From positions 1-46,595 of IMG/VR virus record IMGVR_UViG_3300006030_000036: a DNA stretch of 46,595 nucleotides. The stretch is one strand, 5' to 3'. Every line of letters begins with the position of its first letter. The first letter of the stretch is position 1. Position numbers and translations under genes: made by a program. The DNA is from a virus. Positions 12,649 through 31,284 of this stretch are shown piece after piece. The notes under the pieces were generated by a model that worked only from the letters and a program-made list of their open reading frames with translations, was not told the origin of the DNA and made no database searches.

Positions 12649-14094
12649 ATGGCATTCACTAAGATCGAGAACGACGCCCTCGCAAACACCGTCACCGCCA
12701 ACGTCACGTCGCTCTTTACCGGTAACAGCACCGTCAACACCACCATCACCGCAGGGTCGATCACCACCTCCAATACGATTATCGCAACAGGCTATGTGGT
12801 ATCGTTCACCGCAGGAGAAACCCTAGCCGCACGGGATGCGGTGTACATCGAGCCCGCATTGACCAGCGGTACTGCGGGACGTGTCTATAAGATGGATGCG
12901 GATGTCTTGGTGAAGAGTACCCAAGCGTTCTTTGCGGGGTTTGCGCTCGCGAGTGCGTCAGCGGCTGCGAGTGTGAATGTGCAGATTAGCGGCATCGTCT
13001 CGGGGTTCTCGGGCTTGACAGTGGGGGCGTTGTATTATGCGGGGAGCACCGCAGGCGCAGTGACCGCGACGAAACCGTTACATCCGTTGCCGGTAGGCAT
13101 TGCGGTGTCTGCAACACAGATCTTGATCAACCCCGGCATCAAACGCGAACAGGAACAGTCAGAGAACGCATCAGCAATATATGGTTATGTGATGGGTGGA
13201 ACGACGGGCGCAGTCGTGGCTACCACAGACCGCACTACTTTCAGCACCGGTGCGACAGCGGCCAGTACCGTGAGCAATCTTTCGGTCGCAAAAGCTACCC
13301 CATATGCTATTAGCGACACCACGGTGTATGGATACGCCGCGGGTGGCACGACGGGTGCGTATGTTGCTACCACAGATCGTATTACCTTTGCGACCAGTGT
13401 GACCGCGGCGTATGCGACCGCAAATTTACCGGCCGCGGTTGGTGATGGCCATCTCAATGGGTTGTCTGATGGGGCGATTTACGGATACCGATTGGGCGGG
13501 TATTCTTCTACGTATAACTCCACGGCGGATCGTCTCACCTTTACCACGGGAATATTTGCGGCCAGTACCGTGAGTAACTTATCAACCGCTCGCTATGGTA
13601 CATCCACCGTCAGTGATGCAGGCACGTATGGTTATAATCTCGGTGGTAACACGGGTGCGGATGTCACCACAGCGGATCGTGTGACGTTTAGTACCAGTGC
13701 GACGGCCGCGTACACTGCCGCAAATCTCTCTCAAGATCGACGCTATGCCGCAGGTGTGAGTGACGGGGGCATTACCTACGGATATATTCTTGGTGGTCGG
13801 CGGCAGTCATCCAGTAGTGAAGTGACGACCGGTGATCGTCTCACATTCAGCACGGGTGCCACTGCGGCGAGTACGGTATCCAATCTCGTGACAACACGAG
13901 CGATTATGCCTGCGGTGAGTGATGGTACGGTATATGGTTACATCGCAGGTGGTAGCACGAATTTTGCAATCAGCAGCCCTACAACCTCCGCAGAGCGCAT
14001 CACTTTTAGTACCAGTGCGACGGCTGCATATACGACGGCTAACTTATCACAAGCCCGATATGGTCTTAGTGGTCTCTCTGACGGCGCTGTCTAA
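12649..14094 (+). CDS. Fibre protein with six Kelch-like repeats (propeller paralogue B2)
   Basis: 481 residues, paired with the preceding propeller gene by its start MAFTKIENDALANTVTANVT. It has the common middle domain with AGETLAARDAVYIEP and PLHPLPVGIAVSATQ. Six units follow (YGYVMGG, YGYAAGG, YGYRLGG, YGYNLGG, YGYILGG, YGYIAGG), and it ends in SDGAV. The fifth blade carries an extra basic/serine loop (RRQSSSSE) absent from the others. There is no Shine-Dalgarno site; the ATG lies 5 bases after a late promoter motif. Confidence 0.75.
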   Translation: MAFTKIENDALANTVTANVTSLFTGNSTVNTTITAGSITTSNTIIATGYVVSFTAGETLAARDAVYIEPALTSGTAGRVYKMDADVLVKSTQAFFAGFALASASAAASVNVQISGIVSGFSGLTVGALYYAGSTAGAVTATKPLHPLPVGIAVSATQILINPGIKREQEQSENASAIYGYVMGGTTGAVVATTDRTTFSTGATAASTVSNLSVAKATPYAISDTTVYGYAAGGTTGAYVATTDRITFATSVTAAYATANLPAAVGDGHLNGLSDGAIYGYRLGGYSSTYNSTADRLTFTTGIFAASTVSNLSTARYGTSTVSDAGTYGYNLGGNTGADVTTADRVTFSTSATAAYTAANLSQDRRYAAGVSDGGITYGYILGGRRQSSSSEVTTGDRLTFSTGATAASTVSNLVTTRAIMPAVSDGTVYGYIAGGSTNFAISSPTTSAERITFSTSATAAYTTANLSQARYGLSGLSDGAV

Positions 14095-14100
14095 CCCCAC

Positions 14101-14107
14101 CTAAATA
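14101..14107 (+). promoter_or_regulatory. Late promoter CTAAATA, leaderless spacing
   Basis: CTAAATA with 6 bases before the ATG at 14114 and no ribosome site between. Confidence 0.65.
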
Positions 14108-14113
14108 CATCAT

Positions 14114-15040
14114 ATGGGCTACCTCGGACGACAACCTTCTATCGGGCGCTTCGCACACCTTGACGACATCACGTCATCGTTCAATAGTGCGTGCACCACG
14201 TTCTCGCTGACACAATCGTCGGTGCCACTTGTTCCCGGTGCCGCCTCGAACCTCATCGTCAGTTTGGGTGGTGTGTTGCAGGAACCCGAAGTCGCCTACA
14301 CCGTGAGCGGATCGACCATCGTGTTCTCCGCCGCCCCCGCGAATACCCAACCGTTCTTTGGCATTCTGTTGGGGGATGTGCTCGACGTGGGGCAGGTGTC
14401 GCAGGGTGCGGTGATCAATGCGTCGTCATTCAGTGTGGGCGCGAATGTCGTTATCAATACCTCTGCGGTATTTGTAGGCAATAGTACTGCGAATGTCATT
14501 CAAACAAGTAGTGCTGTCACCGTTGGGGCGAATGTGGTTGCGAATACGTCAACAGTATTTCTTGGAAATTCTACGGCGAATCTTGTTCTCACCAGCACCA
14601 GTCTTACGATTGCCAATTCAACCGCGAATCTGGTTCTTACTCCGACTGACATTTATTCCGTGGCGTGGACAGATTACACCGCATCATCCACCATCACGGG
14701 ATGGTCGTCATTTACAGCAAATCGTAAAATTATTAAATATAAAAAAATTGGCAAATTAGTATTTGTGCAATGGCATTTGGAAGGTACCAGTAATGCCACG
14801 TCAGTATCCTTTACTCTTCCGTATACGTGTGTAAATAATACCGGAACCGGGTATCCATCCGCCTATGGTACATGGTTTGGATATGATAATGGTGCATATC
14901 TTTCAACAATTCAAAGCACCTATATTTCAGCAGGTTCGTCTTTAGTCGAACATCGCACATCTCCCGGCACAGCGGCAGGTTGGACGGCAAGCGGCACTAA
15001 AATATCCAGCGGCACATTATTCTATGAGTCTACGACATAA
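14114..15040 (+). CDS. Tail fibre protein with conserved N-terminal domain and AT-rich C-terminal knob
   Basis: 308 residues. Residues 1-95 (MGYLGRQPSIGRFAHLDDIT ... LGGVLQEPEVAYTVSGSTI ... FFGILLGD) match a domain I know at the start of many marine phage fibre proteins. Three shaft modules follow (VGANVVINTSAVFVGNSTAN and two shorter copies). The C-terminal 130 residues, from about WTDYTASSTITGW, are aromatic and beta-rich (KIGKLVFVQWHLEG), typical of a trimeric knob. The DNA coding this knob is far more AT-rich than the first half, suggesting the tip was acquired from another genome. Confidence 0.75.
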   Translation: MGYLGRQPSIGRFAHLDDITSSFNSACTTFSLTQSSVPLVPGAASNLIVSLGGVLQEPEVAYTVSGSTIVFSAAPANTQPFFGILLGDVLDVGQVSQGAVINASSFSVGANVVINTSAVFVGNSTANVIQTSSAVTVGANVVANTSTVFLGNSTANLVLTSTSLTIANSTANLVLTPTDIYSVAWTDYTASSTITGWSSFTANRKIIKYKKIGKLVFVQWHLEGTSNATSVSFTLPYTCVNNTGTGYPSAYGTWFGYDNGAYLSTIQSTYISAGSSLVEHRTSPGTAAGWTASGTKISSGTLFYESTT

Positions 15041-15043
15041 CCT

Positions 15044-15050
15044 CTAAATA
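15044..15050 (+). promoter_or_regulatory. Late promoter CTAAATA, leaderless spacing
   Basis: CTAAATA with 5 bases before the ATG at 15056. Confidence 0.65.
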
Positions 15051-15055
15051 CTCAT

Positions 15056-15619
15056 ATGGCATACCTCGGTCGCCCACTCGCTACGGATAAAACCACCCGC
15101 ACGAAGAAGATCGACTCGCTCGCCGCGTCGTTCAATAGTGCCTGCACGGTGTTCAATCTGACCTCCAGTGGGGCGGCCGTCTATCCTGCGACCTCGAAAA
15201 ATCTGCTCATTAGCATCAACGGTGTCATTCAGGAACCCGATGTCGCGTTCACTGTGAATGCGGCAACGATTACCTTTACCTCGGCACCTTCGACGGGCGC
15301 GACGTTCTTTGGCGTGCTCAACGGCGAACCGAATGATTTATTGCTGACACCCTCCGTCACCACGTTGACGATTGGGTCGAACGTGAGTGCGAATGCGACC
15401 ACGGTGTTTGTGGGAAATAGCACGGCGAACGCCGTGCACACCTCAGCAGGATTTACTGTGGGTGCGAACGTGACGATGAATGCCTCCACCCTGTTTGTAG
15501 GCAATAGTTCTGTCAATACCGCGATTACCGCCGGTGCGATTACGTTGAGTGGTGTGGCAATTGGTGGCGGTGACGGTGACCAGATTGTGTTAGCCACGCA
15601 AATCTTCGGAGGTCGGTAA
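15056..15619 (+). CDS. Short fibre protein, paralogue of the preceding N-terminal domain
   Basis: 187 residues starting MAYLGRPLATDKTTRTKKID. It shares the fold signature of the preceding gene (SFNSACTVFNLTSSG, INGVIQEPDVAFTVNAATI, FFGVLNGEPND), then has two shaft modules (IGSNVSANATTVFVGNSTAN and VGANVTMNASTLFVGNSSVN). It stops without any C-terminal knob, ending in VLATQIFGGR. It may be a connector or a fibre whose tip is supplied by another protein. It is translated from an apparently leaderless start. Confidence 0.7.
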   Translation: MAYLGRPLATDKTTRTKKIDSLAASFNSACTVFNLTSSGAAVYPATSKNLLISINGVIQEPDVAFTVNAATITFTSAPSTGATFFGVLNGEPNDLLLTPSVTTLTIGSNVSANATTVFVGNSTANAVHTSAGFTVGANVTMNASTLFVGNSSVNTAITAGAITLSGVAIGGGDGDQIVLATQIFGGR

Positions 15620-15629
15620 GATGCACGCA

Positions 15630-15636
15630 CTAAATA
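15630..15636 (+). promoter_or_regulatory. Late promoter CTAAATA
   Basis: CTAAATA 16 bases before the ATG at 15653, with TGAGG (15641-15645) as ribosome site in the short leader. Confidence 0.6.
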
Positions 15637-15652
15637 TGTGTGAGGTTCGGTA

Positions 15653-16015
15653 ATGGCCACATTCTCAAAAGTTCTTCTCTCGGGCAGTTCACAGGGTAAA
15701 GGCATCAAGGTCGCGGCAACTTCCAGTACCGGCACGACGATTCACGCTACGGGCACGTCATCCAGTATTATTGATGAGGTGTGGCTGTGGTGTGTGAACT
15801 CCTCAACGACCGCAGTGAAACTCACGGTGCAATATGGCGGGACGACCTCACCCGATAATGATATTGAAGTGACGGTGCCGGGTGAATCTGGATTAATGCT
15901 CGTCGCGCCGGGGTTGCCGGTGACGGGTACGGGTGCTGCGGCCACGACCATTTATGCCTTTGCGGGCACGACGAATGTGCTGGTGATATATGGCTATGTT
16001 AATCGTATTACCTAA
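15653..16015 (+). CDS. Small virion structural protein (MATFSKVLLSG type)
   Basis: 120 residues: MATFSKVLLSGSSQGKGIKV, then IDEVWLWCVNSSTTAVKLTV, GGTTSPDNDIEVTVP and a terminal VLVIYGYVNRIT. I recognise this as a small protein type common next to fibre genes in marine T4-like phages, but its exact position in the virion is not known to me. The predicted structure is a compact beta sandwich. A TGAGG site and a late promoter precede it. Confidence 0.65.
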   Translation: MATFSKVLLSGSSQGKGIKVAATSSTGTTIHATGTSSSIIDEVWLWCVNSSTTAVKLTVQYGGTTSPDNDIEVTVPGESGLMLVAPGLPVTGTGAAATTIYAFAGTTNVLVIYGYVNRIT

Positions 16016-16027
16016 ACGAGACGAGCG

Positions 16028-16615
16028 ATGAGTTTACGATTAGGTACGGGCAGTGGCCCGTTGGGTAGTGCAGGGATGGTGAGTTTATGGAACTCACCGA
16101 GCTTGCTTGTTGCCTCTGTTCAACGTGGATCTACATCGATCACTGGGGCAAACTACTCCGCAACCTCTACCATTAGCAGTGTAAACACAAACTATAGTGT
16201 CGTAAGCTGCCGAGGGAATGGAAATGGCGGAGTTGCGAATCGGTCATTAATTCCATATATCCAGTTAACGAATGCAACGACGTTAACGGCAACTCGCCCA
16301 TATCAGGATGGAAGTAACTCCTCAACTATTTATTGGGAAGTCATCGAATTCTACCCGGGAGTTGTGCGAAACATCCAATCGTTTAGTTTGAGTTTTACTG
16401 GAGGCCCTACACCGACCGCAACGCTTACGACGTTTAATACAAGTAAAAGTTTATTGTTTTATCGTGGCGTAGATCAGCCGGGTGGGTATGGTGGCGATCT
16501 AGCATCTTATACGGCCTATCCAGTTACAAACGTAGATAGTAGTACGCAAGTTTCTGGTAGTATCGGTGCCTGGGGTGACGGCCGTATTTTTGCTACATTA
16601 GTAGAGCTTTATTAA
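16028..16615 (+). CDS. Virion/fibre-associated beta protein, function unknown
   Basis: 195 residues. The start MSLRLGTGSGPLGSAGMVSL is Gly/Ser-rich, then VASVQRGSTSITGANYSATS, IYWEVIEFYPGVVRNIQSFS and a C-terminal WGDGRIFATLVELY. VQRG followed by an alternating beta pattern and WEVIEF recur in phage structural proteins of unknown role. The start follows the previous stop by 12 bases. The base composition of its middle is more AT-rich than the flanking genes. Confidence 0.6.
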   Translation: MSLRLGTGSGPLGSAGMVSLWNSPSLLVASVQRGSTSITGANYSATSTISSVNTNYSVVSCRGNGNGGVANRSLIPYIQLTNATTLTATRPYQDGSNSSTIYWEVIEFYPGVVRNIQSFSLSFTGGPTPTATLTTFNTSKSLLFYRGVDQPGGYGGDLASYTAYPVTNVDSSTQVSGSIGAWGDGRIFATLVELY

Positions 16616-16626
16616 AGGTGCATACA

Positions 16627-17070
16627 ATGAATCGACAATTACAAATTCGCAACGGGCAAGCAGAAACCGAATGGTCGGGAGCAAACGGATTTCCTATACC
16701 ACCATCGGATGAATGGATCTTTGTGGATGTCACCGACCGCCCCGACGCCACCGTCGGCATGCGCTACGACGCCGCGACCGACACGTTTTCACCCGCACCT
16801 GTCGTTCCACGCACCATCGTGAGCAAAGCACAGGTGGTCGGTGTGCTGACGGCACAGGAGTGGTCGGAAATGAATAAGTATCATCCGACCGCAGACGCCC
16901 CCTATAATGATGCAGAAGTATTCTGGGCGATTACGCAGTTCAATCTCGCGGATCGCATTAATCTCGCAGACCCGCGTATCACGCAGATTTTTACGATGCT
17001 GGTGGGAAAGAACTTGTTGAGTGAGGCACGAGCCGCGGAGATCACCGCGGCACTTCTCGCATTGGCCTAA
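16627..17070 (+). CDS. Hypothetical protein, possible fibre assembly or attachment factor
   Basis: 147 residues from ATG 16627. An in-frame GTG at 16618 is part of the AAAGGTG ribosome site and is rejected as start. The N-terminus (MNRQLQIRNGQ, PPSDEWIFVDVTDRP, GMRYDAATDTFSP) resembles the small proteins that follow phage fibre genes. The C-terminal half is helical (AQVVGVLTAQEWSEMNKY, EVFWAITQFNLADRINLADP, ARAAEITAALLAL), a pattern also seen after phage fibre genes. Assembly-chaperone function is inference only. Confidence 0.6.
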   Translation: MNRQLQIRNGQAETEWSGANGFPIPPSDEWIFVDVTDRPDATVGMRYDAATDTFSPAPVVPRTIVSKAQVVGVLTAQEWSEMNKYHPTADAPYNDAEVFWAITQFNLADRINLADPRITQIFTMLVGKNLLSEARAAEITAALLALA

Positions 17071-17175: not shown

Positions 17176-18888
17176 ATGGCCACTATCGATCCACTGACAC
17201 TTGCAAATACGTTCGAAGATCTTGTCACAACCGTCAATGCGGTAGCGACGGAACTCAACACGAATGTATTGAAAATTGGTGACATCTCCGGTAATTTGGT
17301 CGTCGAGCAGATCACGACGAATACGCTGACGGTTCTCGCGACGACGAGTCTGCGTGGAAACACCTCTGCAAACGCCAATCTAACTGTCAACGCCACGATC
17401 AATACCGTCGCGCTGGTCGTCAGCGGAAACGCATCAATTGCCACATTGAATGTGAGCACAAACACAAGTACCGGTAATCTGACGGTCAGTGGCACACTCA
17501 CTCTCAATGGCGCCGCGATCAATACGACGGCTGTTCCCGAAGGCACCAATCAATACTATACCGATACTCGCGCACGTGCCGCGGTAAGCAATGGCGCGGG
17601 TATTGGCTATAGTAACAGCACCGGCGTCATCACGAATCTTGGTGTCACCGCACTTGCTGGGCAACTACCAATCTCCGTCAATGCATCATCGGGAAGCGTT
17701 GCGGTTTCGATCTCGGACACTCCGTCATTCACAACCGTGACGACAGGCAACGTCGTGGCCAATACTACAGCACTGGCCGTCGGCGCGAATGTGGTCAGTA
17801 ACACGTCAGCGATTGTCATAGGGAACAGTAGCGTCAATACGACGATTACGTCTTCCGCGATTACGACGGGCCTCGTGGTGCCCGTAGATCGAACCATTAC
17901 TGCTAATGGTAGCACTGGCACTTCTGGACAGGTGCTCACGTCAAATGGAACGACTGCGTATTGGAGTACCGTCTCGGGTGGAAGTAGCGCAGGTGGAAAT
18001 GGTGCGGTGCAATATTGGAACACCAGCACCAACGCGATTGATGCATCAGCGAACCTGTCGTTTACCGGCAGTGTACTCACACTTGGAAACTCCTCTGTCA
18101 ATACCAGTCTGAATAGTTCCGCGCTGCTCGTCAGTAGCGTATCGCTGGGCGCAAACGTCTCGTTGAATGTGTCCGCGTACTTTGTTGGCAACAGTTCCGT
18201 CAACACCGCGATTACCGCAGGCAGTATCGGGTTGAATGGCGCTGTCGTCAACTCTACCGTGTTTACGGGTACATCGTATTCGGCGAATAACACCACGTAT
18301 CTCAATGGTCAAGCCGCTTCCTACTATACGAACGCGACGAACATTACTACGGGCACATTGGCCAACGCGCAGTTGTCGGGTGCGTATACCGGCATCACCG
18401 GTCTTGGTACTCTCAGTACACTTACCGTATCGGGCAACACCACAATAGGCGCGAACCTGATCGTTGCGAACAGCACAGGTGTCTATGTGGGAAATGCTGC
18501 GGTGAACGGTTCCGTCACCAGCGCACTCCTGAGTGTGCGACGCAGCGGGTCGTCAATGGAGTTCGGCGCGGCCAACGATGGGTTTCAGTCCGTTATTGGC
18601 AGTGAAACCACTGGCGCGCCTTTCATCGCATTCAACTGCGAAGCCGGTACCAACAGCGATACCTATCGCACACGCGGCACACGTGCTGGTGCGGTACTGC
18701 GTGCGGATGCAGGCAACGTCATCATCGGATATGTGGGCACTGCAAATACAGACAATCAATCATTACTTGAATTGCTTCGCGTCAGCGGGAGTGCCGGCTC
18801 TGTCAGCGCCAACGGTATCGTGCGATGTGACACGACTTCCGGAAGACTCGTCGTGCCGGTAGGTGCGAATAAGTACGCGACAACATAA
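17176..18888 (+). CDS. Tail fibre protein
   Basis: 570 residues. The N-terminus is MATIDPLTLANTFEDLVTTV, a helix-rich start resembling that of the fibre at 22932 (both have a TFxxxVxxxN pattern). It contains YYTDTRARAAVSNGAGIGY, a motif frequent in phage fibres, several VGANV/VGNSSVN shaft modules, LNGQAASYYTNATNITTGTL (also present in the giant fibre) and a terminal domain ending SGRLVVPVGANKYATT. That ending is nearly shared with the gene at 22932, which closes the same block. It precedes the HxD cassette by 2 bases. Probably a fibre shaft or its distal part. Confidence 0.7.
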   Translation: MATIDPLTLANTFEDLVTTVNAVATELNTNVLKIGDISGNLVVEQITTNTLTVLATTSLRGNTSANANLTVNATINTVALVVSGNASIATLNVSTNTSTGNLTVSGTLTLNGAAINTTAVPEGTNQYYTDTRARAAVSNGAGIGYSNSTGVITNLGVTALAGQLPISVNASSGSVAVSISDTPSFTTVTTGNVVANTTALAVGANVVSNTSAIVIGNSSVNTTITSSAITTGLVVPVDRTITANGSTGTSGQVLTSNGTTAYWSTVSGGSSAGGNGAVQYWNTSTNAIDASANLSFTGSVLTLGNSSVNTSLNSSALLVSSVSLGANVSLNVSAYFVGNSSVNTAITAGSIGLNGAVVNSTVFTGTSYSANNTTYLNGQAASYYTNATNITTGTLANAQLSGAYTGITGLGTLSTLTVSGNTTIGANLIVANSTGVYVGNAAVNGSVTSALLSVRRSGSSMEFGAANDGFQSVIGSETTGAPFIAFNCEAGTNSDTYRTRGTRAGAVLRADAGNVIIGYVGTANTDNQSLLELLRVSGSAGSVSANGIVRCDTTSGRLVVPVGANKYATT

Positions 18889-18890
18889 TC

Positions 18891-19607
18891 ATGGCTAAGA
18901 CCGCAGGCAGTGTGTGGGTATCCGGAAACACGTTTCATTATATTGACGCTTCGGGCGTTGAATGGTATGCGATTGGGAGCAATACAGGTCTTGTCTCGAA
19001 TGCGGTCGCCGGTTCCATCTGGGTCGAAAACAGTAATCTCGCGTACATCGACGAGAACCAATACAAGCGCACACTGAATGTCGCGACGATTGCGAGCCGC
19101 GCTAATTCTGTCGCGGGGTCGCTATGGGTGTCGAACACCTCGGGCACCAGCGCGAATACCGGTAATGTGCAACTTCGCATCATCGGCACCAATAATTACG
19201 AGTATGCAGTGCATGATGATGTGTCGCATACCGATGTGCCGCATAGCGACATTACGCACACCGATAGCGTAACTCATTACGATTCACATAGTGATACTGC
19301 CGGCTATAGTGATCACAATGATTATTATTCATCTCATACAGACTATTCCGACTCGTATCATGATGACTCGCACACCGATACATATTATCACAACGATGCG
19401 CCGGAGTATCATGAAGATTATGGCGACTCTCATACCGATAATCACGCCGATCATGGCGATTATTTCAACGATGGGCACGTCGATTCGCATACGGATTCTG
19501 TGCATAGCGATTCACATAGCGATAGTGCCACACACAACGATGTGGCACATGCGGATGTGACGCACAGTGACGTTGCGCATAACGATCAGCCCGTCTACGT
19601 AGGATAA
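18891..19607 (+). CDS. His-X-Asp repeat protein 1 (putative modified or metal-binding virion protein)
   Basis: 238 residues. Residues 1-107 are three beta repeats, each beginning AGSxWV (AGSVWVSGN, AGSIWVENS, AGSLWVSNT). Residues 108-238 are an extraordinary tail with 23 HxD triplets (HTD, HSD, HND, HAD and so on), often spaced five residues apart, and every His in the tail is the first residue of a triplet. Asp, Ser, Thr and Tyr fill the rest. It ends AHNDQPVYVG. The next gene is a paralogue, and a radical SAM enzyme with the same triplets at its own C-terminus follows. HxD clusters could bind Fe, Zn or Ni, or be substrates for modification as in His-Xaa-Ser repeat systems. The gene starts 2 bases after a fibre stop without a Shine-Dalgarno site. 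Not recognised as a named family. Confidence 0.75.
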   Translation: MAKTAGSVWVSGNTFHYIDASGVEWYAIGSNTGLVSNAVAGSIWVENSNLAYIDENQYKRTLNVATIASRANSVAGSLWVSNTSGTSANTGNVQLRIIGTNNYEYAVHDDVSHTDVPHSDITHTDSVTHYDSHSDTAGYSDHNDYYSSHTDYSDSYHDDSHTDTYYHNDAPEYHEDYGDSHTDNHADHGDYFNDGHVDSHTDSVHSDSHSDSATHNDVAHADVTHSDVAHNDQPVYVG

Positions 19608-19611
19608 GATT

Positions 19612-20271
19612 ATGGCAAAAACAGCAGGTAGCATTTGGGTCGCCGGAAACACCGTACATTACATCGATGCATCTGGTGTCGAGTGGTACGCGATTGGCAG
19701 CAATACCGGTTTAGCATCTGGTGCTATTGTGGGTTCGTTGTGGGTGGAAGGCACCAATCTTCGCTATGTTGATGCCAGTGGGTTTGCCCGCACACTCAAC
19801 GTCACATCGATTGCGAACCGCACAGGCGCTATTGCGGGTTCTATTTGGGTGTCGAATAGCGGAGGCACGAGTGCCTCCACTGGAAACGTACAACTGCGGA
19901 TTATCGGGAACAATAACTATGAGTATGCGGTGCATGATGATATTGCACACACTGACTCACATAGTGATAGTGTAAGTCATGGCGACGCGGCCGGCTATAG
20001 TGATCACGACGATTATTATTCATCTCATACAGACTATTCCGACTCGTATCATGATGACGTACATACCGATACGTATTTTCACAACGATGCGCCAGAGTGG
20101 CATACAGATTATGGTGACACTCATACCGACAATCATGCGGATCATGCCGATTATTTCAGCGATGGGCACGTCGATGTGCATACGGATTCTGTGCATAGCG
20201 ATAGTTCCTCTCATGACGACACACACAGTGACGTCGCACATAACGATCAACCCGTCTACGTAGGTTCATAG
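19612..20271 (+). CDS. His-X-Asp repeat protein 2 (paralogue)
   Basis: 219 residues, aligned without gaps to the preceding gene over the first 107 residues (MAKTAGSIWVAGNTVHYIDA, three AGSxWV repeats). Its tail (108-219) has 19 HxD triplets. A 48-base stretch (20011-20058) is identical to 19320-19367 of the neighbour, so the tails were duplicated or converted recently. Loss of several HxD units relative to gene 1 suggests repeat-number change. The ending AHNDQPVYVGS is conserved and might be a recognition or assembly element. Probably the same role as gene 1. Confidence 0.75.
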   Translation: MAKTAGSIWVAGNTVHYIDASGVEWYAIGSNTGLASGAIVGSLWVEGTNLRYVDASGFARTLNVTSIANRTGAIAGSIWVSNSGGTSASTGNVQLRIIGNNNYEYAVHDDIAHTDSHSDSVSHGDAAGYSDHDDYYSSHTDYSDSYHDDVHTDTYFHNDAPEWHTDYGDTHTDNHADHADYFSDGHVDVHTDSVHSDSSSHDDTHSDVAHNDQPVYVGS

Positions 20272-20287
20272 GAGAAAGTAGTTTATT

Positions 20288-21631
20288 ATGAGTATTGAAG
20301 TTAGACCTGTAGGTGTTACGTGCAACATACAATGCAAGTATTGTTACGAAACGGAAATGCGCAATGTGCAAAAATCTCACAAGTATGACCGTAAGGCCGT
20401 GCTTGCAGCCATCGACAAGCTCAAGCCGGACGAATACTTCTCCTTGTTTGGGGGCGAAGCTCTCATTCTTTCTCTCAAAGATCTAGACGAACTGTTACAG
20501 ATCGCGCACACACGTTTTGGCCATTCGGGTGTGCAAACGAATGCGTCGCTCATTACCGAAAAACACATCGAACTCTTCATCAAATATAACACGCATGTGG
20601 GCATCTCAATGGATGGCCCCGATGAACTGAACGATAGTCGATGGGCAGGCACTTTAGAGGCGACACGAAAACAGACACAACGTACCATGTGGGCATTGAA
20701 AGAACTCTGCGGCCGCGCGGTCACCACTCCGCATTTACTCCCCAGTTTGATCGTGACGCTGCATGCCGGCAACTGCCGAGCGGATCGCTTTCCTCGATTT
20801 CTTGAATGGTTGCACGAACTAGACACAATGGGTGTGCGTCATGTCAATATGCATTTGATGGAGATGGATCATAAAGCGCACGAACTGTATCTTCCTAGTG
20901 AGGAGATTGCAGATCGGCTGATTGAGATCTGGAATATCCTGCCTTCATTCAAACAGTTGCGCATCTCCAAGTTTGACGAGATCCTGAAACTCCAGCGCGG
21001 GAACGGAGATTCAGTCGTATGTCATTGGAAACCTTGCGACCCGTGGAATACCAGTGCAGTAAATGGTATTGAGAATGATGGTTCGCCGTCGCATTGTTCA
21101 CGCACCAATAAGGATGGTCAAAACTGGTTGCCGGCCGAAGGATGCGGCACGAAAAACGGTGCTTCAACGTTTATCGGTCATCCCGGTGCTCGACATTTTG
21201 AACGACAACTTGCGTTGTATGTCACGCCGCAGGAATACGGTGGATGTCAGGGATGTGAATATTGGCTCATGTGTTACGGGCAATGCCCCGGTGAAGGCGC
21301 GAATCACGATTGGCGCATGCGCTCCACGTACTGCGGCACCTTCAAGCGTCTATTTGCGGAAGGCGCACGACGACTTCGCGCCGCGGGTGAAGTGCCGTTT
21401 TCCGAGCACCCCAAGCGCACAGAAATTGAAGCGCAGATGTACGCCGCATGGTCGCAAGAAGAAACGCCATATTTGAGTAAGTACACGCAGCCGTCATCGA
21501 GCACCACACCCGCGACGAAGCACGGTGACCAGCACGGCGATCATACGGATACACAGCCCCATACGCACGATGACGTTCCCCACGGTGATTATTCTGATCA
21601 TGGAGATCATACAGATGTCAACAAGAGATAA
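20288..21631 (+). CDS. Radical SAM/SPASM enzyme with HxD-repeat C-terminus
   Basis: 447 residues. The radical SAM cluster motif CNIQCKYC is at 12-19 (CxxxCxxC binding a 4Fe-4S cluster and S-adenosylmethionine), followed by LFGGEALIL in the GGE position and VGISMDGPDELND. The C-terminal half has SPASM-type cysteines: CHWKPC, then C320, C323, C329 and C333 (GCQGCEYWLMCYGQCPGEG), and C349. Such enzymes (anSME, RiPP maturases) modify peptides or proteins. Residues 412-447 are an added tail with seven HxD triplets (HGD, HTD, HDD), like its two upstream neighbours. The ATG has AGGAGA (20271-20276). Its 3' end overlaps the next gene by 17 bases. Inference: it modifies the HxD proteins; alternatives are another virion or host protein. 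Confidence 0.85.
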   Translation: MSIEVRPVGVTCNIQCKYCYETEMRNVQKSHKYDRKAVLAAIDKLKPDEYFSLFGGEALILSLKDLDELLQIAHTRFGHSGVQTNASLITEKHIELFIKYNTHVGISMDGPDELNDSRWAGTLEATRKQTQRTMWALKELCGRAVTTPHLLPSLIVTLHAGNCRADRFPRFLEWLHELDTMGVRHVNMHLMEMDHKAHELYLPSEEIADRLIEIWNILPSFKQLRISKFDEILKLQRGNGDSVVCHWKPCDPWNTSAVNGIENDGSPSHCSRTNKDGQNWLPAEGCGTKNGASTFIGHPGARHFERQLALYVTPQEYGGCQGCEYWLMCYGQCPGEGANHDWRMRSTYCGTFKRLFAEGARRLRAAGEVPFSEHPKRTEIEAQMYAAWSQEETPYLSKYTQPSSSTTPATKHGDQHGDHTDTQPHTHDDVPHGDYSDHGDHTDVNKR

Positions 21632-22919
21632 TGTTCCGGTACTCCCGGATTGGACACGATGGTCATGGCGCAGTGCTGATGAACGCGAGTGGTGGCAACC
21701 ATTGTTCACGCGTGCGAGTAATGCGTATCAAGATGTCGAACGATTGGCTGTTGTGCACGGTCTGCGACCCGCCGCGTTTCAGAATGTTCCTTCCGATGGT
21801 CTTATTGAGGCCACCCGCTGGGCTGCGCGGCATAACATTCTATGCGTACCACAAACTACCGTAGGTGTTGCCTCTTCGTATAGCAGCACCTCTCAACCCA
21901 TTCGCGATGGAAAATTCGTCTATCGGGTTTTGTATTTGAACCCGCAATACTATGACCGGGCGTTTCCACAAACCGATGCGCAGTATGGCGAACTCTTAGG
22001 CTATCCCGCCTGCTGCCGAGACGCGTATGATGCCACATGGGGCGCGGGTCGTGTCGATAGCACGTGGGAACAAACACGCGAGGGTGCGCATCCGAATAGC
22101 GACCCCTACGCGAGCACCCTATTGCGCTGGATGGGCCTGCGTTTGGTGTCGCATATGCCGTGTTCCTATACGTGCGACGCGTCGCAACGCATCGGTCACG
22201 CGATGTTTGATTTGGGTTGCGCACATGGATACCGTGAGGAGATGCACACCATTCGTGAAGTCTTGTCATGGCCGCTAAAGTGGTCACGACTATTTGGTAT
22301 TGCGGAGATCGTCACACCTGCGTTGAAGATCTCAACACGCAGCGACTGGACGCCGCAGAAACAGCAGTTCTTTCGTACGGGGCACTATGAGCGTGTTCGA
22401 AAGACGCTATGGAAGGATAATCAATTTTCGTCTGCAGAAGGCATGCGTACGACTCACGAAGATATGATCCCTGCGTTAGCGACGCAATTACCGGAGCAGG
22501 CACGTGTGTTGGATCTCGGATGCGGAAATGGGCATCTGCTGCGACGACTAACTATATATAGACCAGATATTCGTATTGCGGGAGTGGATACGAACGCTGA
22601 CGCGATTCATCGTGCCCAACATCCGATTTCTCCGACAGCACGGTTTACTGCGGCTCGTATTCAAGACGGCACATGGCGCGACTGGAACCCTACAGCGGTG
22701 CTGTTTAATCCTGCACGTCTGACGGAAATGTCTCCGTCAGACGCAAGTAATGTTGCGGCGTGGATTCGAGAAATACCATATCAGTTTCCATATTGCTATA
22801 GTGATTGGCAAGCAAAAATCGACGTGCGCACCTTGTGTGAACAATATCATGTGGGCACACCCGCGCCCCTGATTCGTACACCGAACGTGGAAATGGGAGT
22901 CATGACAACTTTTACCTAA
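21615..22919 (+). CDS. Double-cysteine (DUF483-like) domain fused to a class I SAM methyltransferase
   Basis: 434 residues from ATG 21615; the frame is open further upstream but that part overlaps the radical SAM HxD tail and reads as noise. Residues about 100-210 contain LLGYPACCRDAY (GYPACC 129-134) and HMPCSYTCDAS (PCSYTC 182-187), a GYPxCC/PCxxxC pattern I associate with DUF483-type proteins. Residues about 255-434 are a methyltransferase: VLDLGCGNGH (motif I, 298-307), IAGVDTNADAI (acidic residue binding SAM ribose), then TAVLFNPARL in the motif IV region. The 17-base overlap with the radical SAM gene implies coupled expression and a shared pathway. The four cysteines could bind a metal. 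The methyl acceptor is unknown; HxD proteins are the obvious candidate. Confidence 0.7.
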   Translation: MSTRDNVPVLPDWTRWSWRSADEREWWQPLFTRASNAYQDVERLAVVHGLRPAAFQNVPSDGLIEATRWAARHNILCVPQTTVGVASSYSSTSQPIRDGKFVYRVLYLNPQYYDRAFPQTDAQYGELLGYPACCRDAYDATWGAGRVDSTWEQTREGAHPNSDPYASTLLRWMGLRLVSHMPCSYTCDASQRIGHAMFDLGCAHGYREEMHTIREVLSWPLKWSRLFGIAEIVTPALKISTRSDWTPQKQQFFRTGHYERVRKTLWKDNQFSSAEGMRTTHEDMIPALATQLPEQARVLDLGCGNGHLLRRLTIYRPDIRIAGVDTNADAIHRAQHPISPTARFTAARIQDGTWRDWNPTAVLFNPARLTEMSPSDASNVAAWIREIPYQFPYCYSDWQAKIDVRTLCEQYHVGTPAPLIRTPNVEMGVMTTFT

Positions 22920-22931: not shown

Positions 22932-24287
22932 ATGCCACTGATTACACCGATACAAACTACCGATACGTTCCGCACATGGGTCACCCGTACCAATACGGTT
23001 ATTGATCTTTTGAATAGCAATACCGTCGTTGTGGGCGGCAATGCTATCGGTGCCTTCACGATTGGTAATTCTTCCCATACAAATACGAGTCTGTCGCTTA
23101 ATGGCGGAAAAACGCTCGCGAACTTGAGTGGTCTTTTTCTTGCGGGAAACTCGACATTTGGCGCCAACGTCTCTGTCAATAGTTCCGCGCTGGTCGTCAG
23201 TGTGTCCGCGAATACGACACTATTCCAGTCGCCCGGTGGAACCGTCGTTAACGCCAGCCCGCTATCGGTGAATGCTGCCGCCACATTTAATGGTGCGGTC
23301 ACATTTACCGCATCTGGGCCACTGACAATCGGTAATGTTGCATCATTTGCAAGCAACGTTTCCGTTGCGAACAATCTGGTGGCATCGAACACCGCCTACA
23401 TGCGGTCAATTCTGTTCAGCGAAAGTGGAGCAGTTATTGCGGCTACCGTGTCGTCAGCACAATACGACAATTACAATCCCAGTGGATTGCACGATGCGCA
23501 AGTCGTGCACATGAATCCGGATACGCAGAATATTATTCTGACGGGTATTGTCGCTCCCACAAACCTGTCTATCGGTGCTAAAGTACTATACCTTCAGAAC
23601 CTATCCGGTTCCTATAAGATTACGCTCAAGAGTGAAGACCCGTCATCGAGCGCCCTGAACCGATTCAAGACTGTCTCCAACCAAGATGTTGACGTGCCAC
23701 CCGGTGGTTCAATTCCGCTATTGTACACCACAGCCACAGGTCGTTGGCGGTTATTGGCGGCACCTGCAGGCACCAGCACGACATTATCTGTGTCTGGCGC
23801 CGCCACATTCAGTGATACCGTCAATGTGACGGGTGTGGCGTCATTTACCAGTAACGTCGCGGTTGATAGCAACGTCTTGTTTGTCGATACCGTCAACAAC
23901 CGTGTCGGCGTGAATATCAGTTCACCCACATCTCCGTTACACGTCGTAGGCAATTCGCTATTCGGTAATGTGACGATAGGTGGAACCGCAAGTATTACCG
24001 GGGCGGCCACGTTCAGCAATACCGCATCCGTGACCGGCGCGGTGAATGCATTGAGCACTTTCGGTGTGACAGGCGCAGTCAATGCGCTGAGTACCTTGGG
24101 CGTGACAGGCGCAGTCAATGCGCTGAGTACATTCGGGGTCACAGGCGCCACCACACTCAATAGCACACTCGCCGTATTGGGGGCCGCGGATTTGCGAGCG
24201 AATGTCAGTGTCAATGCGATTGCACGTTTCGATAGCACCGGAGGCCGCCTCGTGCTGCCTGTCGGTACCAATAAATGGGCTTCGTAA
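22932..24287 (+). CDS. Tail fibre protein (possible fibritin-position protein before gp13)
   Basis: 451 residues. The start is MPLITPIQTTDTFRTWVTRT, then shaft-like beta repeats, and a central domain at about 165-280 (YDNYNPSGLHDAQVVHMN, GSYKITLKSEDPSSSALNRF, PPGGSIPLLYTTATGRWRLL) typical of phage fibre heads. A tandem array of VTGAVNALSTFG follows, and the end GGRLVLPVGTNKWAS is nearly shared with the fibre at 17176. It directly precedes neck gene 13, the position that fibritin (wac) has in T4, but there is no coiled coil resembling fibritin, so I call it only a fibre. Confidence 0.65.
   Translation: MPLITPIQTTDTFRTWVTRTNTVIDLLNSNTVVVGGNAIGAFTIGNSSHTNTSLSLNGGKTLANLSGLFLAGNSTFGANVSVNSSALVVSVSANTTLFQSPGGTVVNASPLSVNAAATFNGAVTFTASGPLTIGNVASFASNVSVANNLVASNTAYMRSILFSESGAVIAATVSSAQYDNYNPSGLHDAQVVHMNPDTQNIILTGIVAPTNLSIGAKVLYLQNLSGSYKITLKSEDPSSSALNRFKTVSNQDVDVPPGGSIPLLYTTATGRWRLLAAPAGTSTTLSVSGAATFSDTVNVTGVASFTSNVAVDSNVLFVDTVNNRVGVNISSPTSPLHVVGNSLFGNVTIGGTASITGAATFSNTASVTGAVNALSTFGVTGAVNALSTLGVTGAVNALSTFGVTGATTLNSTLAVLGAADLRANVSVNAIARFDSTGGRLVLPVGTNKWAS
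24030..24137 (+). repeat. 36-bp tandem repeats (three copies) in the fibre gene
   Basis: Three head-to-tail copies encode VTGAVNALSTFG with one F-to-L change, followed by a diverged fourth unit. The second and third DNA copies are nearly identical, so the array is recent or maintained by recombination. Confidence 0.8.
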
Positions 24288-27452: not shown

Positions 27453-29114
27453 ATGCCTAAGAGTACCCGCTCTGAAAAGGGGTATAACGGGAACCCCAAC
27501 CTGCCGCTTCCCAACGAACAAGTCTCGCTTACACAAGCAGAACTTGAAGAGTATGTGAAATGCGCGAACGACCCGTTCTACTTCATCAATAACTACGTTA
27601 AGATCGTGCACGTCGATCATGGTATCGTGCCGTTCAAGATGTGGCCGTTCCAAGAGAGCATCATCGACGTCTTCGAAAACAACCGATTCGTTATCTGCAA
27701 GATGGCGCGTCAGTCGGGAAAATCGACCGTCGTGGTGTGTGGATATTTTCTCTGGTTCATTACCTTTCATCCGGATGTAAGTGTTGGCATTCTTGCGAAT
27801 AAAGAAAACACTGCGATTGAGCTGTTGCGCCGATTGAAGCAGTCGTATGAGTATCTGCCCAACTTCCTAAAGCAAGGCATTCTCAAGTGGGATCAGAAGC
27901 TCATCATGCTCGCGAACAACTCCCGCGTACGTGCGGAAAGCACCAGTGCCAGCGCCATCCGCGGCGACACGTTCAACATTCTGTTCCTCGATGAGTTTGC
28001 GCACGTGCCTGAAAACATTGCGGGTGAGTTCATGACCTCCGTGTTTCCGGCAATCTCGTCTGGTAAGACGACGAAGTTGTTCGTCATTAGCACACCAAAC
28101 GGATACAATCTGTTTTACAAGATTTGGAATGATTCGGAAGAAAAACGTAATACCTATAAGACGATTGGGTTTACGTGGCGTGATGTGCCCGGTCGCGACG
28201 AGCAATGGGCCGAGGAAATGCGCAAGAATCTTGGTGAGCAGGCATTCCAGCAAGAGTTTGAATGCTCGTTCCAAGGATCCGCAAACACGCTGATTCCGGG
28301 CTATAAACTCTCACAGATGACGTATATGACGCCTGTGGAAGATCGAGGCGATCTCAAGATCTACGTCAAACCCATTCGCGCTGACGAACGGGATCCCGCG
28401 CATGTCTATGTCATGACTGTCGATACGTCGCAAGGGCACGAACAAGACTATGCGGCCATTAGCGTCTTCGATATTTCAGTCGCGCCGTTTCGTCAAGTCG
28501 CGATGTTTCGACGAAACAATTTGGCACCGCAGTTGTTAGCACCCCTAGTCAAACAAATCGGCCAATACTATTGCAATGCGTTCGTGCTCGTGGAAATCAA
28601 TGACGTGGGGTTGACGGTCGCGGATTCGCTGCACACAGAATTAGAGTATGAGAACATGATCTATGTGCGCTCACATCCCAAAAAAGGGCAAATGCTTGGA
28701 GGGGGGTTCAATCCCAAAGCGCGTATGGGATTGCGCATGACGCAAGCGACGAAACGTATTGGGTGTGCGCAACTTCGTGCGATGATTGAACGGGATCAAT
28801 TGCTGATTACGGATTACCAAACACTTCGAGAACTCACGACATTTGTCGCGAAAGGCGGCACCTATCAAGCGGAAGAAGGCGCACATGACGACTGTGTGAT
28901 GACGCTGGTGATTCTCGGATGGTTGACGGCACAAAGTGGATTTGAAAATTATGTGGGTCTGTCGATGCGTCGCATGCTCATGAACCAAGCGGAACCCGTT
29001 ACGCTGGAGGAACCGTTTATAGGGTTTTTTGATGTACAACCAGAAGTCACATGGGAAGATGCAACATCGTCACGATATGCGGTGGTGGAGGATACGGATT
29101 TCTGGAAAACGTAA
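27453..29114 (+). CDS. gp17: Large terminase subunit gp17 (packaging ATPase and nuclease)
   Basis: 553 residues. Walker A-type motif MARQSGKST lies near 84-92, Walker B ILFLDEFAH at 176-184 with catalytic Glu181, coupling motif STPNGYN at 211-217. The RNase H-like nuclease domain has its first acidic residue at D322 (MTVDTSQGHEQDYAAI) and a later GAHDDCVMTL with D479/D480. It pumps DNA into the prohead through the gp20 portal and cuts concatemers. The N-terminal PFYFINNYVKI is also typical of the family. Length is a little shorter than T4 gp17 (610). Confidence 0.95.
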   Translation: MPKSTRSEKGYNGNPNLPLPNEQVSLTQAELEEYVKCANDPFYFINNYVKIVHVDHGIVPFKMWPFQESIIDVFENNRFVICKMARQSGKSTVVVCGYFLWFITFHPDVSVGILANKENTAIELLRRLKQSYEYLPNFLKQGILKWDQKLIMLANNSRVRAESTSASAIRGDTFNILFLDEFAHVPENIAGEFMTSVFPAISSGKTTKLFVISTPNGYNLFYKIWNDSEEKRNTYKTIGFTWRDVPGRDEQWAEEMRKNLGEQAFQQEFECSFQGSANTLIPGYKLSQMTYMTPVEDRGDLKIYVKPIRADERDPAHVYVMTVDTSQGHEQDYAAISVFDISVAPFRQVAMFRRNNLAPQLLAPLVKQIGQYYCNAFVLVEINDVGLTVADSLHTELEYENMIYVRSHPKKGQMLGGGFNPKARMGLRMTQATKRIGCAQLRAMIERDQLLITDYQTLRELTTFVAKGGTYQAEEGAHDDCVMTLVILGWLTAQSGFENYVGLSMRRMLMNQAEPVTLEEPFIGFFDVQPEVTWEDATSSRYAVVEDTDFWKT

Positions 29115-29187: not shown

Positions 29188-31284
29188 ATGGCATTTCAAG
29201 TTTCGCCGGGCGTCAACATTTCAGAAATTGATCTGACCGCTGGCGTTCAAGCAGTTTCTCTTTCCGCAGGTGGTTTTGCTGGCCCGTTTCAGTGGGGCCC
29301 AGGCCTCGATGTTATCAATGTTAGTTCGGAAGAAGACTTGGTGCGTAAGTTTGGCAAACCAGATACAAACGTCTACGAATACTGGTTCACTGCGCAGTCG
29401 TTTCTGTCGTATTCCAACCAGTTAAAAGTGGTGCGTGCGCTGAGTGCGCGAGCACTGAATGCAACTGCCGCATTCAAGACGCTGACAGGTACTGTTGCGA
29501 ATTCTAGTGCGACTGCATTGACAGGCACCGGGACACTCTTTCAGACAGAACTGAAAGTTGGTCAGAAGATCGTATTGGCCGGTAGCGTGGAAGCTACTGT
29601 CAACTCTATTGCCAGCAACACCTCGCTGACGGTGACGTCGGCGCTGTCGAATGCTGTGTCAAGTGCAACAGTCGCCGCGTATGGCGTGCTGGTGCAGAAT
29701 GATGCGGATCACGACAACAACTACGCGTCAGGTGCTTCCGGATATGGCCTTGCATCCGCAAAATGGCCGGGCGATCTTGGCAACTCACTCAAAGTGAGTC
29801 TGTGCCCCAGTGCTGGCGCATTTAGCAACAGTGGCCTTACGGGCACACTTTCGCTGACTGCGGATAGCACCAGCGTGTCTGGCTCAGGCACATTGTTTTC
29901 CGGCGAACTGCTTGCTGGTGATTACATTGTGGCGAACGGAAAGTCATATCAAGTGTCATCCGTCGCGAGCAACACGGCATTGACGCTCGCAGAAGCTGCA
30001 GACGATACGGGTTCATTCACGACAGGTAACTGGTCGCGCAAGTGGGAATATAACTCACTGTTTGATGCGGCGCCGGGTACAAGTGATTGGGCTACGGCTC
30101 GCAGCGGATCGACAGATGAACTGCACGCGGTTGTCGTCGACCAAGACGGTCTGTTTACAGGCGTTCCCGGTACCGTGCTTGAGCGTTTTGCGTTCCTGTC
30201 AAAGGCATCGGATGCAAAGACGCTCAATGGCGATTCCAACTACTACGCAAACGTGCTCAACCGTCAGTCTGCATACGTATGGTGGATGGGTCACGTGGGC
30301 ACCACAACCAACTGGGGTTCACCCTCAACGGGTCTGACGTTCGGTGCTGCGGTATTGCCATACACGAAGTCGCTTGATGGCGGCAACGACGCGAACGAAG
30401 TGATCAGTGCGGGTGAAGTGCAGACTGCGTACGATCTGTTCGCAGATGCGGATCAGTACGACATCTCGTTACTCGCAGCGGGCCCCGCGTCAATGGCTAC
30501 CGCTGGATACCTCATCAGCAACATTGCAGAAGTTCGCAAGGATTGCGTGGTGTTCGTTTCACCGCTCAAGGCTAGCGTGGTCGACAACGCAGACAACGAA
30601 GTGGATGACGTGATTGGAGATCGTAACGATCTGCCTTCAAGCAGCTACGCGGTGATGGATAGCGGGTGGAAGTACACCTACGACAAGTATAACGACGTTT
30701 ATCGGTGGGTGCCGCTCAACGGCGACATGGCCGGTTTGGCAGCACGCACGGATACGACCAACGATCCGTGGTTCTCACCCGCAGGGTTCACGCGTGGCAA
30801 TATCAAGAACGTCGTGAAGTTGGCGTGGAATCCGAAGCAAGCCGACCGCGACGACATCTACAAGGTGGGAGTCAATCCTGTCGTGAGCTTCCCCGGACAG
30901 GGCGTCGTGCTTTACGGCGATAAGACGTTGCTGAGCCGTCCGAGTGCGTTTGACCGTATCAATGTGCGCCGTCTCTTCATTGCATTGGAAAAGACGATTG
31001 CACGCTATGCCAAGAGCCAACTCTTTGAGTTCAACGACGAGTACACGCGTTCCGCATTCCGGAATGTGGTGGAGCCGTATCTGCGGGATGTGAAAGCACG
31101 CCGCGGCGTTACTGACTTCTTAGTCGTGTGCGATACCACAAACAACACACCAGCAGTGGTGGATGCAAATCAGTTTGTGGGTGACATCTATGTGAAGCCT
31201 TCACGTTCAATCAACTTCATTCAGTTGAATTTCGTGGCGGTTCGTTCAGGCGTTTCGTTCCAAGAAGTCGTGGGGGCGGTGTAA
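29188..31284 (+). CDS. gp18: Tail sheath protein gp18
   Basis: 698 residues, about the length of T4 gp18 (659). The N-terminus FQVSPGVNISEIDLTAGVQA and WGPGLDVINVSSEEDLVRKF are family hallmarks. The C-terminal contractile core includes GVNPVVSFPGQGVVLYGDKT, RINVRRLFIALEKTIARYAK and DIYVKPSRSINFIQLNFVAV. Two similar beta segments are inserted near the front, at about 99-165 and 217-275, both with GTGTLF/GSGTLF, a GQ/GD turn and SxASNTxLT. They probably form surface domains on the sheath. Strong ribosome site AGGAGA at 29175-29180 and an own late promoter fit its high copy number. Confidence 0.95.
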   Translation: MAFQVSPGVNISEIDLTAGVQAVSLSAGGFAGPFQWGPGLDVINVSSEEDLVRKFGKPDTNVYEYWFTAQSFLSYSNQLKVVRALSARALNATAAFKTLTGTVANSSATALTGTGTLFQTELKVGQKIVLAGSVEATVNSIASNTSLTVTSALSNAVSSATVAAYGVLVQNDADHDNNYASGASGYGLASAKWPGDLGNSLKVSLCPSAGAFSNSGLTGTLSLTADSTSVSGSGTLFSGELLAGDYIVANGKSYQVSSVASNTALTLAEAADDTGSFTTGNWSRKWEYNSLFDAAPGTSDWATARSGSTDELHAVVVDQDGLFTGVPGTVLERFAFLSKASDAKTLNGDSNYYANVLNRQSAYVWWMGHVGTTTNWGSPSTGLTFGAAVLPYTKSLDGGNDANEVISAGEVQTAYDLFADADQYDISLLAAGPASMATAGYLISNIAEVRKDCVVFVSPLKASVVDNADNEVDDVIGDRNDLPSSSYAVMDSGWKYTYDKYNDVYRWVPLNGDMAGLAARTDTTNDPWFSPAGFTRGNIKNVVKLAWNPKQADRDDIYKVGVNPVVSFPGQGVVLYGDKTLLSRPSAFDRINVRRLFIALEKTIARYAKSQLFEFNDEYTRSAFRNVVEPYLRDVKARRGVTDFLVVCDTTNNTPAVVDANQFVGDIYVKPSRSINFIQLNFVAVRSGVSFQEVVGAV

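Follow-up and report, generated by a model that had tools for sequence, protein, structure and literature searches.

Why should a virus carry, among its fibre genes, two proteins built largely of His-x-Asp (HxD) triplets and, directly behind them, a radical S-adenosylmethionine (SAM) enzyme of the SPASM type? The question is raised by IMG/VR record IMGVR_UViG_3300006030_000036, the 46,595-nt stretch of viral DNA that is called the window here. Its cassette (positions 18,891-22,919) comprises the array proteins HxD1 and HxD2, the enzyme, and a partner protein that joins a DUF483-like domain to a methyltransferase. The answer put forward here is that the array protein is probably a stapled virion protein, in which each triplet would be made into a three-residue cyclophane by the cassette enzyme, giving the virion a long element that is rigid or resistant.

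Arrays and Enzyme in Viral Genomes

A preliminary description of this DNA proposed a peptide-modification locus, that is a substrate and its radical SAM maturase beside fibre genes, and this was borne out by a co-occurrence that holds in both directions in viral records. The DNA of IMG/VR was searched, with no protein as a guide, for four HxD at period 5, which gave at least 119 stretches in 115 records, and these records were then screened whole with a profile of the enzyme. An array was called when the longest open frame held at least 12 HxD, a threshold picked after looking at the data. By this rule the enzyme was found in 34 of 40 array records and in 1 of 75 others (34/6/1/74; Fisher p 7e-22). 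When the 16 records that had supplied profile rows were left out, the figures were 19 of 25 and 0 of 74. In a further four records the enzyme sequence equals a profile row; with these removed as well, 15 of 21 and 0 of 74 remained. The sole non-array record with the enzyme (G101/L075) carries a true array masked by a longer frame. A wide spread of HxD homologues without a radical SAM gene was not seen in the viral records.

Viewed from the enzyme, an array is present at 71 of 79 viral loci (the best of 180 confirmed relatives). Two of the eight loci without a call have arrays masked by the rule (L179, L181) and the remaining six are short or cut. At the loci of other radical SAM enzymes an array was called in 2 of 59 cases, both spurious by eye. 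The reversed motif gave no true DxH array in 110 new loci under the same rule, and the same profile found the enzyme in none of the 50 records searched. On these comparisons, the enzyme very likely acts on the arrays.

HxD-rich frames that lie under a longer open frame (nine records, no enzyme) were scored as having no array, and seven of the nine were judged by eye to be apparent pentapeptide-repeat genes read in the wrong frame. Such wrong-frame genes mimic long HxD arrays (L030, L031, L074, L077, L090, and L117) and are a trap for motif scans.

Array Proteins and the Triplet Motif

The cassette and its flanking genes are arranged as follows:

17176..18888, +, fibre-like protein immediately 5' of HxD1, with the conserved C-terminal motif ..LVVPVGANKYATT
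18891..19211, +, HxD1 N-terminal domain, three AGSxWV beta-hairpin repeats (AlphaFold2: all beta)
19212..19607, +, HxD1 array, 23 HxD and Tyr/Phe-x-Asp/Asn triplets, C-terminus DQPVYVG
19612..19932, +, HxD2 N-terminal domain, 73% identity to the HxD1 N-terminal domain
19933..20271, +, HxD2 array, 19 HxD and Tyr/Phe-x-Asp/Asn triplets, C-terminus DQPVYVGS
20288..21472, +, radical SAM/SPASM enzyme, catalytic and SPASM domains (CxxxCxxC; CX14GX4C...CX2CX5CX3C...C)
21473..21631, +, C-terminal tail of the enzyme, with seven HxD of its own
21615..22469, +, DUF483-like partner domain, conserved LGYPxCC ... (C/H)SxxC
22470..22919, +, class I methyltransferase domain, fused to the partner
22932..24287, +, fibre-like gene 3' of the cassette, with a related end (..LVLPVGTNKWAS)

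In HxD1 (18891-19607, 238 residues) 23 of 24 His and in HxD2 (19612-20271, 219 residues) 19 of 20 belong to HxD triplets, and since the single exception in each protein lies in the N-terminal domain, all His of the tails are in triplets. The earlier count of tandem paralogues with 23 and 19 HxD, each tail His within a triplet, was therefore exact. With 5000 shuffles per tail, the number of HxD had a mean of 5.1 and a maximum of 12 for HxD1, and 4.5 and 10 for HxD2. Chance or low complexity as the source of the HxD was rejected on the basis of these shuffles and of the reversed-motif control. Seven triplets of the Tyr/Phe-x-Asp/Asn kind are also found within the HxD1 array and six within that of HxD2.

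The motif was earlier given as His-x-Asp, which holds for most triplets, but across 71 non-redundant arrays (13,194 residues) the general motif is really aromatic-x-Asp/Asn and not HxD as such. Asp or Asn stands at +2 of 98% of His (Asp 93%, Asn 4%, so that HxS is not the array motif), 50% of Phe, 39% of Trp and 38% of Tyr, and of 0-14% of any other residue, the background being 24%. Among 648 Asp/Asn that no His explains, 268 have Phe, Tyr, or Trp two residues before them, vs. 45.5 ± 5.7 (maximum 61) in shuffled arrays (n = 500). The middle residue of HxD is never Pro (0 of 2140). Wholesale swaps of the motif, in which the N-terminal domain and the DQPxxVG-type end are kept, occur in some phages: L215 (FxN/FxQ), L196 (FxN), L230, L235, and L236 (HxN), and L213 (HxN and FxN). 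There are also arrays of mixed His, Trp, and Tyr triplets (L234, and L266 from an archaeal metagenome-assembled genome) and of HEN (L265, from a Firmicutes metagenome-assembled genome). A DQPVYVG-type C-terminal peptide is frequent in array proteins, even behind the Phe-x-Asn array of L215. Ten of the 72 rows scored on the enzyme tree, one of them (L268) probably a spurious frame, have arrays of the Asn/Gln-rich type, which requires seven changes and is only partly clustered.

Seven pairs of close arrays differ at 9 of 311 sites in position 1, 13 of 311 in position 3, 53 of 301 in position 2 and 111 of 623 in the linkers. The outer two positions are thus four to six times better conserved than position 2 or the linkers, in a set in which near-identical members are common to two pairs. 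Five of the nine changes at position 1 are from aromatic to aromatic, and six of the 13 at position 3 exchange Asp and Asn. Array proteins mostly have 150-1400 residues and about 10-100 triplets, and a few bacterial ones have 70-110 residues.

The N-terminal domain, previously described as a structured beta domain, was modeled by AlphaFold2 as all beta with a mean predicted local distance difference test score of 88.9 (HxD1). Foldseek found no match to it in PDB at E 0.001 and one in BFVD, A0A451ED92 (342 residues, E 2e-7), presumably phiMa_29 of Thermus phage phiMa, to judge from its equal length. Searches of the window array proteins against Pfam and PHROGs returned only a sub-threshold match to Atu4866 and two matches at E 0.3-0.8.

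The Enzyme and Its DUF483-Like Partner

The radical SAM/SPASM gene begins 16 bases after the HxD2 stop, exactly as first described. Its product matches Pfam Radical_SAM (E 3.6e-14), and the SPASM-type cysteines, whose spacing we take to be the SPASM rule, are invariant in 21 aligned members. All 21 rows match the cyclophane models AmcB, YhhB, and GrrM/OscB at E up to 1e-5, and they also match the DynA, sulfatase maturase, PapB, and viperin models. The curated cut-offs of the cyclophane families are missed by the window enzyme (AmcB, 69.9 bits vs. 425; YhhB, 45.7 vs. 445), and by this sequence comparison its family is separate from the named ones. At least two HxD occur in the last 110 residues of 63 of 77 viral enzyme relatives and in the rest of the protein in 7 of 77, and this tail may be a docking or self-modification element. 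The HxD of the enzyme tail, the Tyr/Phe triplets within the arrays and the wide spread of the family go beyond the preliminary description, the observations of which are correct and understated, and the interpretation of which is, taken as a whole, partly supported.

The enzyme gene ends at 21631 and the next gene probably starts at 21615, which confirms the 17-base overlap with a methyltransferase joined to a double-Cys domain; the order is DUF483-like, then methyltransferase. Of 103 enzyme loci, 95 have a partner gene, and at eight prokaryotic loci partner and enzyme are fused. The methyltransferase domain is missing from the relative in Thermus phage Cumys and from several others in the alignment. 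Of 25 partner proteins, 17 match DUF483 (PF04467) with E values of at most 0.01, the best being 1.8e-7; scores such as 24.4 and 24.6 lie below the gathering score of 25, and the match of the window protein is weak (E 0.034). The conserved Cys-Cys ... Cys/His ... Cys set of the partner could bind a metal or an Fe-S cluster. The 50 Foldseek matches listed for the partner are headed by methyltransferases, and DUF483-like proteins found no match in PDB by sequence below E 0.09. No peptidase match was found among the eight window proteins scanned.

Fibre Context

The fibre-like genes on both sides of the cassette have related C-terminal ends, VPVGANKYATT and LVLPVGTNKWAS. An end of this PVGx(D/N/G)x(W/Y/F) type is present in the gene just 5' of the AGSxWV array gene at 30 of 49 loci, among them Thermus, archaeal, and uncultured examples; of the 39 distinct ends, 25 are of this type. 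Among all open frames of more than 100 residues in the same 49 loci it is found in 42 of 1965, a count that includes the upstream genes. At L247 such an end is fused to the AGSxWV domain in a single frame. Other phages have large proteins that contain laminin-G, collagen or tail-fibre-assembly-like regions and whose C-terminal portion is the array, and three of seven large array carriers scanned had no PHROGs match. L203 and L222 have a host-specificity tail gene some 2 kb upstream, and the gene immediately upstream at L214 matches a tail fibre family (E 1.6e-4). These neighborhoods suggest that the array protein is likely a fibre-associated virion protein.

The window itself belongs to a contractile-tailed phage, with a terminase at 27453-29111 and a tail sheath at 29188-31281. 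An open frame of 2026 residues (82-6162) has no PHROGs match at E 0.001. The window enzyme is present with 100% identity in two IMG/VR records (94,654 and 38,346 bases).

Relatives of the Cassette

The cassette has relatives in many uncultured phages, in some prokaryotic genomes, on a haloarchaeal plasmid and in three Thermus phages. When 50,697 phage records were searched, the enzyme matched over its full length in these three Thermus phages, and two faecal phage records align to residues 1-116 only; searches of these records with the array protein and with the partner matched the Thermus phages alone. The recorded host of all three (Cumys, phiMa, and phiLo) is Thermus thermophilus HB8. Cumys and phiMa share the gene order of the window, i.e., baseplate/collar-fibre genes (so annotated in Cumys only, not in phiMa), array protein, radical SAM enzyme (38 and 37% identity to that of the window, respectively) and DUF483-like gene, and their array proteins, of 343 and 342 residues, respectively, have all His in HxD (54 of 54 and 53 of 53). 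phiLo (L009) carries the enzyme pair and, several kb off on the opposite strand, two large proteins annotated as hypothetical, in which 72 of 78 (13807-15231, minus) and 80 of 85 His (15253-16935, minus) are in HxD. A plasmid of the cultured haloarchaeon Halomicrococcus gelatinilyticus, which has a baseplate J gene, holds fibre-like, array, radical SAM, and partner genes, the partner being identified by eye through its motif. At L004 a protein of Ser-Pro repeats that also contains HCD triplets and CND repeats is encoded close to the same cassette (83-1129).

Some prokaryotic loci look different. The enzyme and a DUF483-like partner, with no array seen, are present at L254 and L259 (both Bradyrhizobium), L252, L257, L258, L262, L264, and L268; the two genes are fused at L252, L257, and L264, and a B12-binding radical SAM gene lies upstream at L254. 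Shorter HxD proteins or tails are found at L253 (about 70 residues), L255 (about 95 residues), L250, and L269. Large proteins with a short HxD C-terminal tail stand next to the enzyme at L250 (8203-12195, SAR324), L269 (5681-9847, Frankia), and L249 (7294-9996, Owenweeksia), and it is possible that these are cellular rather than viral substrates.

Proposed Mechanism and Its Alternatives

How might the cassette work? The N-terminal domain with its three hairpins would seat the array protein on or beside the tail fibre, the tail being a string of aromatic-x-Asp/Asn triplets in which His-x-Asp predominates. The radical SAM/SPASM enzyme would take a hydrogen from C-beta of the third residue, and this carbon would then bond to the aromatic ring two residues earlier, closing one small strained ring per triplet. 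Its near-constant DUF483-like partner might be a scaffold, an electron donor or a second tailoring enzyme, and the methyltransferase domain an optional addition. Dozens of rings per chain would make a spike or adhesive that is rigid and withstands proteases and heat. The substrate logic is that of the triceptides, because an aromatic residue at i, a free middle and Asp/Asn at i+2 are found beside a radical SAM/SPASM enzyme, and by this analogy the exact bond is likely a cyclophane of triceptide type. The wider proposal, that phages and archaeal proviruses build polycyclophane fibres of up to about 100 His-x-Asp or Phe-x-Asn rings by means of a virus-encoded radical SAM enzyme, stands at about even chances.

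Several findings weigh against this picture. The expectation that HxD proteins always accompany this radical SAM subfamily held in most viral records, but in six of the 40 array records the whole-record profile search gave no enzyme match. Three of these belong to one phage family, a fourth record of which has the enzyme, and the others are a 10 kb contig terminating at the array, a record with an Asp-rich protein and a 206 kb record with TAHTD repeats (L060; 2-6937, minus, a frame of 2312 residues with a long TAHTD run and 48 HxD). The sequences are not independent, because enzyme and array are co-inherited. Of 21 enzyme loci in prokaryotic genomes, only nine gave an array call, and that at L250 is probably due to a spurious frame; no array was present at six loci with 10 kb on either side (L252, L254, L257, L258, L259, and L264) or within 8 kb at Halorussus L439. 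The six array-free loci indicate that the enzyme family is wider than the array substrate. About half of the Phe, Tyr, and Trp residues of the arrays lie outside position 1, and 11 of the 22 changes at positions 1 and 3 fall outside the allowed class. The window enzyme is below the cut-off of every NCBIfam family among the 25 matches listed. Its closest solved structures are an anaerobic sulfatase maturase and then ChlB, and the sulfatase maturase model aligns over its full length.

Because a sulfatase maturase is both the best relative of known structure and a full-length model match, the enzyme could modify the triplets by another oxidation, such as beta-hydroxylation or dehydrogenation of Asp/Asn, epimerisation, or a bond to a ring heteroatom. 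Radical SAM/SPASM enzymes catalyse many reactions, according to the parts of PMC11002830 that were consulted, and the DUF483-like protein that travels with this one often has a methyltransferase domain. This reading is nevertheless rather unlikely: an aromatic residue at i, a free middle and Asp/Asn at i+2 are what a ring bond from i to i+2 needs, and a change of Asp alone would not need His, Phe, Tyr, and Trp to stand in for one another.

Passive metal loading, which the preliminary description had offered as an alternative, would have unmodified arrays bind iron, zinc, or copper while the enzyme serves something else. Asp and His are metal ligands, and HxH motifs form iron sites in the tip of the T4 long fibre. 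The arrays are unlike that tip in that HxH repeats are nearly absent from them (at most about 2% of array His). Entire arrays in which Phe replaces His (L215, L196) retain the N-terminal domain, the C-terminal end and the enzyme, and the array is tightly linked to the radical SAM enzyme in viral records, all of which makes metal loading distinctly improbable. Less credible still is the view, in print for Cumys and phiMa, that the module modifies phage DNA; related genes do lie near deazapurine DNA-modification genes in cyanobacteria (PMC11437467, section 3.4), but the tight partner of the enzyme is an array protein located in the tail module, the enzyme has an HxD motif of its own, and its nearest models are mostly peptide maturases. 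The formation of cyclophanes on a fibre-associated protein is thus the preferred explanation of the cassette.

Significance and Comparison with Known Systems

If the proposal is true, radical SAM peptide chemistry extends from small natural products to large, multiply cross-linked structural proteins of viruses, and the arrays are a new class of biological polymer. They would be, as far as was searched, the first component of a virion to be produced by radical SAM chemistry; no published description of HxD arrays with a radical SAM enzyme was found in a literature search that ran without bioRxiv and most subscription journals. The proposal would also account for the three-gene module of cultivable Thermus phages, give DUF483-like proteins a role, and point to genetically encoded, rigid, and heat-stable polymers with programmable motifs (HxD, HxN, FxN).

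How does the cassette relate to systems already described? His-Xaa-Ser systems, which consist of the gene set HxsA/B/C/D, likewise pair a repeat protein that has a His-x-polar motif with radical SAM enzymes, and the likeness drawn to them at the outset stands as an analogy. As a relationship it does not, since the window enzyme scores 30 bits vs. a cut-off of 370 for HxsB (TIGR03978); moreover, the third residue is Asp/Asn, and the window cassette is viral and has one radical SAM gene. In the TvgA/TvgB polycyclopropylglycine system the units of a repeat are also modified by a radical SAM enzyme, but the motif is TVGG, the bond is another one and the locus is a bacterial peptide cluster. True relatives are found in the 'rSAM module' of Thermus phages Cumys and phiMa, with the same three genes in the same order. 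The passages of PMC11437467 examined describe this module as a radical SAM enzyme and two proteins of 'unknown function', guessed to act on DNA, and neither they nor section 3.4 mention HxD arrays.

The closest chemical parallel is offered by the triceptide enzymes, which join a ring carbon of Trp, Phe, Tyr, or His at i to the C-beta of Asn, Asp, Arg, Ser, or Ala at i+2, with Tyr-x-Asp being cross-linked by YxdB (PMC11002830, where the original triceptide papers, Nguyen 2020 and Sugiyama 2022, are cited). As in these systems (XncB, OscB, MscB, YxdB, HaaB, and YhhB), a radical SAM/SPASM enzyme stands here beside an aromatic-x-(Asn/Asp/...) substrate, and His, Tyr, Phe, and Trp each serve as the first residue. 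Unlike in triceptide systems, the window substrates are proteins of 238 and 219 residues, not short leader peptides matured by cleavage, and most array relatives are of that size or larger, up to about 1400 residues, and largely viral. The bond is here predicted, and it would be the work of a separate enzyme subfamily that has a substrate-like tail and a DUF483-like partner.

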